In this document: positions 28,251-51,002 of the stretch, in pieces
How positions within the stretch are numbered: position 1 is the stretch's first letter
Layout: every line of letters starts with the position of its first letter
Source of the DNA: Candidatus Gastranaerophilales bacterium
GTDB taxonomy: Bacteria; Cyanobacteriota; Vampirovibrionia; Gastranaerophilales; Gastranaerophilaceae
DNA: 51,002 bases
Assembly: GCA_944324835.1 (NCBI GenBank)
Contig: CALUXV010000008.1
Location: 1 to 51,002 of the forward strand
Direction: 5' to 3'
Position numbers and translations under genes: made by a program
The notes under the pieces: model-generated
Told to the model about the DNA's origin: nothing
Seen by the model: the letters and a program-made list of their open reading frames with translations, nothing else
Database searches by the model: none

Positions 28251-28313
28251 GTTTGTTACAATTCGTTACAAAAAAACAATTTTTATCGATGATTTAACTT
28301 TATATATATAAGG
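28251..28313 (+). promoter_or_regulatory. Two-part promoter signature upstream of the 28337 gene
   Basis: GTTTGTTACAA (28251-28261), exactly 32 bases, then TTAACTTTATATATATAAGG (28294-28313). A second overlapping box, TTCGTTACAAA, follows directly. The leader to the ATG is ~23 bases. Confidence 0.6.
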
Positions 28314-28336: not shown

Positions 28337-29098
28337 ATGACAAGTATAGGTAAAATCGGCAGTGCATACTGTGACTTCTTGTTTGGCAGCAGCGCAGATG
28401 CAATGGTAAGCAGAGTAATTGATTCCTGCAAAAACTATAAATATTATAAATATGGATTGCCTGAAAGTATTTATCATGGGATAAAACAGGGATGCAAAGA
28501 TTCATACAATCATACCCGGAAAAATGGCGGCTTCTTTACTTCCATGTGGGGAAATATTAAAGATATAAAGACCGAATGGAATAAAGCTAAAATCCCAAAT
28601 GCATCTTTGTTTAAAAATATGAAAACTTGTTTCCCAAAAATTATTAAACCTCTTGGGAAAGCTGCGCCGGCTGTTCTTGCAATCATCGGACTTGCAACAG
28701 AACTCCCTAATATATGGCGTGCTACAAAAGAAGATGGTATTTTGAGCGGATTAAAAGAAACAGGAAAAACAGCAATCAAGCTTACATTTGGTGCTCTTTG
28801 CGGCGGTTTTGGTACAAAGCTTGTTCCGGTTATCGGTAGTACATATGGTTTCATGCTCGGGAATGTAATTGGTGATCAGGTCGGCAGCTTTTTAGGTAGT
28901 AACGCCGGAGAATTTGTCTCCCTTAAAGCTATGGGAGATTCTTATACTGCCAAACACAAAAAACTTGAAAAACTAAAACAAAAACAAGAAGAACTTGAAA
29001 AACAAAGACAAGAACAAGAACAGCTTAAGCAGAAACAACTGGAGTATGAAAAATACAGACAATTAGCCATCCTTCAAAATATAAATAAATCGGCTTGA
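28337..29098 (+). CDS. Glycine-rich membrane-interacting protein with coiled-coil tail, function unknown
   Basis: 253 residues, not recognised. The polar, aromatic N-terminal half contains KNYKYYKYGLPESIYHGIKQ. The middle has hydrophobic Gly/Ala segments: AAPAVLAIIGLATELP (about 109-124), LTFGALCGGFGTKLVPVIG and YGFMLGNVIGDQVGSFLGS, which together resemble a glycine-zipper membrane hairpin. The last ~45 residues are a highly charged repeat of KLKQKQEELEKQRQEQEQ type, a coiled coil. AGG lies 7 bases before the ATG. Shared promoter and layout tie it to the 12004 gene. Confidence 0.65.
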   Translation: MTSIGKIGSAYCDFLFGSSADAMVSRVIDSCKNYKYYKYGLPESIYHGIKQGCKDSYNHTRKNGGFFTSMWGNIKDIKTEWNKAKIPNASLFKNMKTCFPKIIKPLGKAAPAVLAIIGLATELPNIWRATKEDGILSGLKETGKTAIKLTFGALCGGFGTKLVPVIGSTYGFMLGNVIGDQVGSFLGSNAGEFVSLKAMGDSYTAKHKKLEKLKQKQEELEKQRQEQEQLKQKQLEYEKYRQLAILQNINKSA

Positions 29099-29125: not shown

Positions 29126-29190
29126 AATTGTTAATATTTTGATTTAAAAAAGCAATTCTTAAAAAATAAAATACTTTATATAAATGTAAG
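29126..29190 (+). promoter_or_regulatory. Two-part promoter signature upstream of a candidate small RNA
   Basis: The core AATACTTTATATA...ATGTAAG is well preserved (29170-29190). The upstream box is weak (AATTGTTAATA, 29126-29136) and at 33 instead of 32 bases. Confidence 0.55.
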
Positions 29191-47596: not shown

Positions 47597-47770
47597 TAGT
47601 GAATAGTGAAAAGTGAGGAGTGAATAGCTTCTGTTTTCTAGAATTTTTTCTATCAAACGGGAGTTTGGTGCAAAACTATTCCCCACTTTCAGGTTTTGTA
47701 AAACGAATATTTTTAAATATTCTTAATTTAAACGTCTACTTACTACTCACTATTCACTAATCACTTTTTA
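47597..47770. repeat. MITE-like element with AGTGA-heptamer inverted ends
   Basis: Left end TAGTGAATAGTGAAAAGTGA and on to 47627; right end (complement) AAAAAGTGATTAGTGAATAG over 47737-47770. Both are arrays of NNAGTGA units in opposite orientation around ~110 bases without an open frame. Confidence 0.65.
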
Positions 47771-47791: not shown

Positions 47792-47821
47792 AAAAAAAAC
47801 TCCTCGTTGTTCGCAAGGAGT
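47792..47821 (-). terminator. Terminator of the leftward candidate small RNA
   Basis: On the minus strand ACTCCT, loop, AGGAGT and TTTTTTTG. It stands isolated from any gene stop on this strand. Confidence 0.85.
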
Positions 47822-47908
47822 AAAATTTGGAATTAGGAAGGGAATTAGGGTTTTGTCTCTCATTATTTAAACGTAATTCTTTTGTCTACTTAACGTTTAA
47901 ATTTACAT
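47792..47908 (-). ncRNA. Candidate small RNA, leftward (about 115 bases)
   Basis: Starts after the promoter core at 47909 and ends in an intrinsic terminator. It has a hairpin of arms TTTAAACGT (47866-47874) and ACGTTTAAA (47893-47901), a repeated AATTAGG(AAG)GG stretch, and no open frame with a ribosome site. The start is approximate. Confidence 0.6.
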
Positions 47909-47972
47909 CTTACATATATATAAAGTATATACTTTTATCCTAATTTCACTTGTTGTTTATATTGTTACAAAA
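47909..47972 (-). promoter_or_regulatory. Two-part promoter signature, leftward
   Basis: On the minus strand TTTTGTAACAA (47972-47962), exactly 32 bases, then TATACTTTATATATATGTAAG in two parts (47929-47909). Confidence 0.75.
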
Positions 47973-47987
47973 CTTAATATTATAAAA

Positions 47988-48051
47988 ATATGTAACAATA
48001 TATTTAATTTATGCAATTTATATATAACAAAATACTTTATATATATGTAAG
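47988..48051 (+). promoter_or_regulatory. Two-part promoter signature, rightward
   Basis: ATATGTAACAA (47988-47998), exactly 32 bases, then AATACTTTATATATATGTAA and G (48031-48051). It is divergent from the previous site with the two boxes only 15 bases apart. Confidence 0.75.
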
Positions 48052-48160
48052 CGTTGAGCTTAGAAAAAAGATTTCATACATAACCTACACACACTAACCT
48101 TCTACACACGAGGAATTACACAAAAAATTCCAGCCTTCCTTTTTCGGAAGGTTTTTTTTG
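48052..48160 (+). ncRNA. Candidate small RNA, rightward (about 110 bases)
   Basis: Bounded by the promoter core and a perfect intrinsic terminator (CCTTCC 48134-48139, GGAAGG 48146-48151, eight T). Contains C/A-rich repeats (CTACACACACTAAC, CTACACACGAGG) that are unusual for this genome and look single-stranded. No open frame with a ribosome site. Confidence 0.6.
48134..48160 (+). terminator. Terminator of the rightward candidate small RNA
   Basis: CCTTCC-tttttc-GGAAGG followed by TTTTTTTT. No gene on the plus strand ends nearby, so it belongs to a separate transcript. Confidence 0.9.
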
Positions 48161-48324
48161 TGCTACGCACGTAGACAGGTTTCGTTTTGTTTCTAGATTC
48201 CAAGTTATATTTTTTTATCTTGTTACGTTGAAAGTTCGGTTTTGCGTTTTTACAAATGATTAAGTTATTAAGCCGTTTTTAGAGTACTATCTCCTTGAGA
48301 AGAGGGATAGGTGAGGTGTAAAAC

Positions 48325-50092: not shown

Positions 50093-50449
50093 CTATTCAC
50101 TCTTTTTTGTTTTTAAATATCTTTTTAATCCACTGAGTAGTTTAAATAAATCATTTATATCTTCAAATAAATTATCTAAGTTCGTGATATAACCTAATTG
50201 TTCGGATATGATTAACTGTGTTTCAAGTTCTGCAAGAGAACCATATGCAATATCAAAAAATCTTATACTGTCTTTATCTGAATTTCTTGCACAACCTTCT
50301 GCAATATTTGATGGAATGGAAACTGCAGCTCTGCGCATTTGGCTGGATAATCCAAATTTTTCATCTACAGGAAAAGTTTGAGTGATTTTGTAAATCTTAG
50401 ACACAAATTCAATAGATTTTTTCCAAACATCAAGTCTTTTATGGTTCAT
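50093..50449 (-). CDS. Four-helix-bundle protein (S23 / IVS-encoded type) inserted between groES and groEL
   Basis: 118 residues of the S23 four-helix-bundle family, first known from intervening sequences in 23S rRNA genes. Landmarks: HKRLDVWKKSIEFVSKIY, FGLSSQMRRAAVSIPSNIAEG and the Gly-Ser-Leu-x-Glu motif YGSLAELETQL. Biochemical role unknown; an RNA- or nucleic-acid-related role is assumed from the rRNA cases. It is flanked on both sides by inverted AGTGA-heptamer arrays like those of the MITE-like elements at 41159 and 47597, which indicates arrival as a mobile unit. The ribosome site GGTGAGA is usable, so it would be expressed with the chaperonins. Confidence 0.88.
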   Translation of the reverse strand: MNHKRLDVWKKSIEFVSKIYKITQTFPVDEKFGLSSQMRRAAVSIPSNIAEGCARNSDKDSIRFFDIAYGSLAELETQLIISEQLGYITNLDNLFEDINDLFKLLSGLKRYLKTKKSE

Positions 50450-50781: not shown

Positions 50782-50880
50782 AATATCCTCCTTTTTAATA
50801 TAACAATATAAATGTATACCAAAATCCTTAAAATCTTAATTATCTTAATGAAAAATTAATTATTAATACCTAATGTTAAG

Positions 50881-50946
50881 TTTTGTAAACAAACATAAAT
50901 CAAAAAGTCAATTTTATAAAATAAAAATACTTTATATACATGTAAA
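50881..50946 (+). promoter_or_regulatory. Two-part promoter signature near the right edge
   Basis: TTTTGTAAACAA (50881-50892, one inserted base) and AATACTTTATATACATGTAA (50926-50945), 33 bases apart. It points right, away from groES, into sequence cut by the window edge. Confidence 0.5.
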
Positions 50947-51002
50947 AGGTTATTTAAAAAGTTTTAATTAGGTTAGTAAAGATTATAAAATTACTTATAG
51001 GT

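Follow-up and report, generated by a model that had tools for sequence, protein, structure and literature searches.

Two candidate families of small RNAs with HLR1-type promoters in Gastranaerophilales

What is encoded by two short units that diverge from one intergenic region, bounded by groEL (50041-48389, minus) and by a gene for a DegT-type aminotransferase (47516-46398, minus), and what might control them? The locus lies on contig 8 of the 1.98-Mb draft genome of a Gastranaerophilales bacterium, within the stretch of 51,002 nucleotides that was analysed here (the window). Gastranaerophilales is an order of common gut bacteria and belongs to the Melainabacteria, the sister group of cyanobacteria that does not photosynthesise. 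Working from the letters alone, an initial annotation had proposed that the left unit (L) and the right unit (R) are small RNAs transcribed away from a shared control region. When the two units were compared across related genomes, this proposal was supported by a near-invariant core, by terminators in which the stem is preserved, by independent copies in many genera, and by the use of the same promoter.

Layout of the locus and occurrence of R and L in related genomes

As shown in Table 1, both terminators lie where the initial annotation had placed them. Each of the two hairpins is followed by 8 T, and 5 terminator-like sites were counted in 3 kb, compared with 1.6 ± 1.1 in shuffled sequence. 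The hairpin noted earlier in the left unit proved to be real and recurs in other copies of the same paralog; moreover, the fold predicted for the R unit (z = -4.2) leaves the C/A-rich stretch mostly unpaired, in line with the first description. Judged from the minus-10 positions, the RNAs likely begin ∼7 nt upstream of the starts first given (47908 and 48052), near 47915 (L) and 48045 (R). The shared control region was found to hold one promoter twice, back to back, with ATACTTTATATATATGTAAG on either strand; the two HLR1 boxes are likewise back to back and overlap by 3 bp.

Table 1. Features of the divergent locus (window positions)
Feature	Position	Strand	Basis
L, candidate small RNA gene, ∼124 nt	47915..47792	minus	conserved with promoter in 8/8 genus genomes and in further genera
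L 5' hairpin, 10-bp stem 47902-47893/47874-47865	47865..47902	minus	predicted fold; arms kept in other copies of paralog
L single-stranded putative seed ACCCUAAUUCCCUUCCUAAUUC	47830..47851	minus	identical in both genus paralogs and genus g51; near-identical in g45, g25
L intrinsic terminator, stem 47821-47799, U tract to 47792	47792..47821	minus	stem kept, sequence changed in other copies
L core promoter: GTGAAA (47949-47944), 16-nt spacer, TACTTT (47927-47922)	47922..47949	minus	motif scan and copy comparison
L HLR1 box, 14/16 specified positions	47964..47981	minus	consensus match
R HLR1 box, 15/16 specified positions; minus-strand reading GTTACATATTTTTATAAT	47979..47996	plus	consensus match
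R core promoter: TATGCA (48010-48015), 17-nt spacer, TACTTT (48033-48038)	48010..48038	plus	98 R promoters compared
R, candidate small RNA gene, ∼115 nt	48045..48159	plus	model matches in 47/60 genomes of the family (E <= 1e-4); two copies in this genome
R single-stranded C/A-rich core ACCUACACACACUAACCUUCUACACAC, putative seed CUAACCUU (48094-48101)	48083..48109	plus	near-invariant across genera
R small hairpin GGAAUU...AAUUCC	48112..48131	plus	111/111 copies
R intrinsic terminator, stem 48132-48153, T tract to 48159	48132..48159	plus	111/111 copies, 56 different stem sequences

Two further features were noted nearby. Beside the L terminator, GTGAATAGTGAAAAGTGAGGAGTGAATAG (47603-47636) and its inverted counterpart (47737-47766) bound a stretch of ∼100 bases, a small mobile-element-like or repeat structure. 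On the groEL side, the operon formed with groES (50781-50494) is interrupted by the gene of a four-helix-bundle protein (50093-50449, minus), which we take to resemble the 23S rRNA intervening-sequence proteins.

By using BLAST with positions 48050-48163 as the query, R was found in 33 of 58 relatives, and the second copy in this genome was located on contig C2 (C2:104391-104499). The sequence-only core model that gave the count in Table 1 often revealed 2 copies per genome, sometimes in tandem. The exact core pattern was also present in at least 114 matching stretches of GTDB genomes, many of them in named Gastranaerophilales assemblies. The single-stranded core CACACUAACCUUCUAC...GAGGAAUU is near-invariant, and the cross-genus stretch CUACCUACUACACACUAACCUUCUACACACGAGGAAUUAC is nearly so, while the leader varies in both length and sequence and 2-nt indels are common in the CA repeats. 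When a MAFFT alignment of R was analysed with RNAalifold, few pairs were obtained and the hairpin arms were misplaced; the structure was therefore counted sequence by sequence over 111 copies. The small hairpin was formed in every copy, its 3' arm reading AAUUCC in 77 and GAUUCC in 34, and the terminator stem was likewise always formed, although its sequence differs between genera. A constrained single-stranded seed and a constrained structure, combined with the lack of a constrained frame, constitute the pattern of an RNA gene. Among the 195 flanks examined, no general conserved neighbour of R was found; recurring neighbours were a glutamine-synthetase-like gene (24/195) and an alpha-mannosidase-like gene (20/195). 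The glutamine-synthetase-like gene stands beside R in many species, often divergently, a placement that may point to a link between R and nitrogen metabolism in these species.

L is carried in two copies by this genome and, with the seed CCCUAAUUCCCUUCCUAAUU, occurs in at least four genera; g1, g51, g45, and g25 contain copies in which both promoter and terminator could be read. A pattern search that allowed up to 3 mismatches in the seed gave matches in 22 of 191 family genomes, representing 7 genera, but several of the 3-mismatch matches may be due to chance. The two paralogs found in genomes of the genus share only the seed and the terminator, with one carrying the 5' hairpin and the other a short leader. 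In genome G022 (L055:1400-1640), a diverged L-like RNA was found to combine repeated CUACCC modules (CCCCCUACACCUACCCUACCUACCCUACUUCCCUUCCUAA) with a GGGGAGU terminator, and this relative suggests a broader class of C-rich repeat RNAs, of which L would be one member. The search of related genomes that had been proposed at the outset thus came out positive, both R and L recurring with promoter and terminator across genera.

The divergent arrangement itself was observed only in this genome (G000), G004, and G007; in G002 and G005, L and R are located on different contigs. Because of this restriction, the pairing of the two genes would not be part of their function. On the sequences compared, the arrangement is lineage-specific, and the shared link is the HLR1/RpaB-type promoter rather than the intergenic region.

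Known families were also searched. At gathering thresholds, Rfam yielded only two tRNAs in the window and matched neither R nor L; at a relaxed threshold, only chance matches were returned, and nothing credible for either unit. Phage records gave no match, and in the literature searched no sRNA was reported for the Gastranaerophilales lineage. The marks of a small RNA are present in both units, namely a promoter of its own, an intrinsic terminator, and no conserved frame. Taken together, these comparisons indicate that R and L are two undescribed families of predicted small RNAs.

The common promoter and its candidate regulator

R and L have one type of promoter, TACTTTATATATATG, with an 18-bp HLR1 box at a fixed distance. 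In nearly all copies with readable upstream sequence, we found TACTTTATATATATGTAAG, an element reading GCAATT, TGAAATT, or GTCAATT ∼15 nt upstream, and the direct repeat TGTWAA-N4-TGTAAC; across 98 R promoters, TACTTT was invariant and GCAATT near-invariant. On the opposite strand the repeat reads KTTACAWW-N2-KTTACAWW, which is the HLR1 box, known from the cyanobacterial consensus (PMC11633204, PMC13421787), of RpaB, a light/redox regulator of photosynthetic cyanobacteria. Agreement with this consensus was complete (16/16) in 36 of the 98 R promoters and reached 15/16 in a further 28. When the same promoters were subjected to dinucleotide-preserving shuffles, 16/16 was never obtained and 15/16 was obtained in 0.5 of 98. 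In 83 of the 98 promoters, moreover, the best HLR1 site had its start at -55 or -54 relative to TACTTT. With transcription assumed to start 12 nt past the first T of TACTTT, the box would extend from about -67 to about -50. The HLR1 of cyanobacteria activates when located at about -45 to -66 and represses when located over the start site (PMC13421787); with the start site so placed, the position in R and L is close to the activating one.

Four OmpR-type DNA-binding regulators are encoded in this genome. When three of them were tested against the NCBIfam RpaB equivalog model (NF045944), one (G000:C79:3869-4564) passed with 360.9 bits (cut-off, 330), whereas the other two were far below. RpaB was present above the cut-off in 53 of 58 relatives, compared with 1 of 14 control genomes, and most of the 5 relatives in which it was missing are incomplete genomes. 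The RpaB ortholog of this genome is devoid of cysteine. Thiol-based redox sensing has been discussed for cyanobacterial RpaB, which has a single conserved Cys59 (PMC13421787); such sensing therefore cannot work in the same way here.

To gauge the promoter class, TACTTTA[TA] sites were examined over 1.12 Mb (∼57% of the genome). Upstream of seventeen sites lay an HLR1 box matching 14 or more of the 16 positions, compared with 3 sites that had one downstream and 0-2 obtained with scrambled motifs. The products of the genes served by these promoters are for the most part small or medium-sized proteins that have no assigned function; a CopG-like regulator is among the remaining ones. Within the window, further promoters of the HLR1/TACTTTATA type were noted at 2891 (minus), 12768 (minus), 28297 (plus), 29152-29190 (plus), and 50928 (plus); the promoter at 28297 is followed by a leader with AAGGTTAG ahead of an ORF at 28337 (MTSIGKIGSAYCDFLF...). 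Positions 50871-51002 repeat the end of contig 16 (G000:C16:35763-35839), including an HLR1-type promoter and the identical leader ATGTAAAAGGTTATTTAAAAAGTTTTAATTAGGTTAGTAAAG...; because both copies of this leader stop at contig ends, the continuation may be a repeated gene or a third family of RNAs.

Predicted pairing with mRNA leaders and alternative explanations

The 8-mer AAGGUUAG, which is complementary to CUAACCUU of R, was present in many mRNA leaders of HLR1 promoters. Within 90 nt upstream of genes, it was found 9 times in the sense direction and 0 times on the other strand, where coding density would predict 1.1. AAGGUUAG also followed ACTTTATA within 30 nt, 54 times altogether and in 28 of 60 genomes; the reversed 8-mer did so 8 times, and the entire pattern read in reverse was found 10 times. 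Since a ribosome-binding site might by itself account for AAGG, the variants of AAGGWWAG were searched as well; the TT form gave 54 matches, versus 29 for AAGGAAAG, AAGGATAG, and AAGGTAAG together. The ratio of AAGGUUAG to the other variants was 50:22 in genomes with a strong R and 4:7 in those without it (Fisher p = 0.038, relatedness ignored). In some leaders AAGGUUAG is placed as the likely ribosome-binding site (2-10 nt before the start codon), in others 20-40 nt upstream, and the promoter class may simply favour it as a leader or ribosome-binding sequence.

Enrichment of 7-mers and 8-mers was more informative than genome-wide duplex energies. In duplex energy against HLR1-regulon leaders, R beat 37 of 40 shuffled seeds (3/40 were as good), and the L seed was no better than shuffled seeds. 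Over all translation starts, L showed no excess over shuffled seeds, and no usable target list was obtained. Given that duplex energies carried little signal, we rate the pairing of R with mRNAs of its own HLR1 regulon as likely and leave the targets of L aside. A direct interaction between UAAUUCC of L and GGAAUUA of R was also considered; this candidate was set aside because the R hairpin is kept in genera where L was not found.

Computation establishes the two genes and how they are conserved, the presence and placement of HLR1, an ortholog of RpaB, and the association of AAGGUUAG with the promoter; from these we infer expression, RpaB binding, activation, and pairing, together with the sign and consequence of regulation. 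R and L are probably Hfq-independent, trans-acting regulatory RNAs that form two multi-copy families and are activated by RpaB through HLR1. RpaB, an OmpR-type regulator, would bind HLR1 near -58 and switch on a sigma-70-like promoter with TACTTT as its minus-10. Each RNA would begin with a short leader, expose an unpaired, C-rich stretch for recognition, end in the terminator, and act without Hfq; Hfq (PF17209) was detected in 0 of 58 genomes, compared with 5 of 14 control genomes, in a search that could miss a very divergent Hfq. Through CUAACCUU and the neighbouring CUAC and CACACA modules, R would pair with mRNA 5' leaders of the AGGUUAG and GUGUGUAG types, often over or beside the ribosome-binding site and often in genes that share the HLR1 promoter, and would thereby adjust the regulon of RpaB itself by feed-forward control. 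L would probably do the same via UAAUUCCC, which is complementary to ribosome-binding sites of the GGGAAUUA type.

A different role for real RNAs would be that the C/A-rich stretch binds a protein (for example, of the KH or S1 type) or acts as a sponge, with no pairing to mRNA. The repeats ACCUAC, CUAACC, and CACAC are as in protein-titrating RNAs, and both the unremarkable genome-wide pairing energies and the failure to find Hfq speak for such a role; however, the enrichment of AAGGUUAG in leaders behind the same promoter is not predicted by a pure protein-binding model, and we regard this explanation as unlikely. The identity of the regulator may be doubted as well. In cyanobacteria, RpaA has sites in common with RpaB (PMC13421787), and with four OmpR-type regulators in the genome, the TGTAAC repeats of an otherwise real promoter class might be bound by RpaA or another such protein. 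Exact 16/16 agreement with HLR1 at a fixed position, combined with the single pass among the three regulators tested against the RpaB model, renders this quite improbable.

The initial annotation had reported no open frame with a ribosome site in either unit. The left unit does have an ATG frame in this genome, reading leftwards from ∼47863, and this frame might be taken to mean that the units encode conserved small proteins. Its ATG is absent, however, in the close relative G004, so that no conserved small protein is indicated there, and an ATG frame of at least 10 codons was present in only 15 of 111 R copies. No conserved frame emerged; the CA repeats tolerate 2-nt indels, and conservation falls on unpaired sequence and terminator stems. 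We consider a protein-coding role highly implausible. The presence of genes on both sides could likewise suggest that the terminators are merely read-through ends of the aminotransferase gene or groEL, with a non-functional region between them. Against this, groEL has a separate terminator of its own (48355-48326), and both units recur with promoter and terminator in many unrelated neighbourhoods; the original statement that no annotated gene explains the terminators is upheld, and the read-through explanation is scarcely credible. RpaB-activated regulatory RNAs that act without Hfq are the interpretation that we carry forward.

Comparison with known regulatory RNAs

The Gastranaerophilales lineage is without photosynthesis genes; homologs of RpaA, RpaB, and NblS were nevertheless noted in Melainabacteria in 2013, where they may have another function (PMC3787301). 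The promoters of R and L suggest what RpaB may do in bacteria that lost photosynthesis, and the role of these three proteins is now directly testable via the HLR1 promoter set, which includes two sRNA families.

Among the sRNAs of photosynthetic cyanobacteria, Yfr1 is found throughout; it is 54-69 nt long and has an ultraconserved unpaired motif, ACUCCUCACAC, between two stem-loops (PMC2190773). R and L resemble Yfr1 in being short RNAs with a conserved unpaired CU/CA-rich motif and a terminator, but the Yfr1 11-mer is absent from both: R (∼115 nt) has CUUCUACACAC and L has CCCUAAUUCCCUUCC. In wiring and layout, by description, R and L also resemble the csRNAs of the CiaRH system of Streptococcus. 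Several similar csRNAs of ∼100 nt are encoded per genome. Their promoters are the strongest under the control of an OmpR-type regulator whose box is a direct repeat, and each csRNA has an unpaired stretch between structured ends that is complementary to ribosome-binding sites (PMC3091779). Unlike R and L, the csRNAs have a TTTAAG-N5-TTTAAG repeat close to the minus-10 and anti-SD/anti-AUG sequence, and they belong to a different phylum; kinship in sequence would not be expected.

With respect to RpaB, the likeness by description is to PsrR1 of Synechocystis PCC 6803, a trans-acting sRNA of the RpaB regulon that pairs with RpaB-controlled mRNAs in a feed-forward loop (PMC13421787, PMC12850537). 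High light induces PsrR1 along with RpaB-repressed genes, whereas HLR1 in R and L appears to lie at an activating position; moreover, the targets of PsrR1 are photosynthesis genes, and the candidate targets of R and L are not. We tentatively propose, as a possibility that we would put at somewhat below even, that Gastranaerophilales kept the cyanobacterial RpaB/HLR1 light-redox circuit, turned it over to a regulon in which most proteins are uncharacterised, and supplemented it with R and L, which would read leaders of the AGGUUAG and GGGAAUUA types in that regulon. The resulting RpaB-sRNA feed-forward network would be older than, or parallel to, that of RpaB and PsrR1, and the comparison bears on whether this design predates photosynthesis in the phylum.
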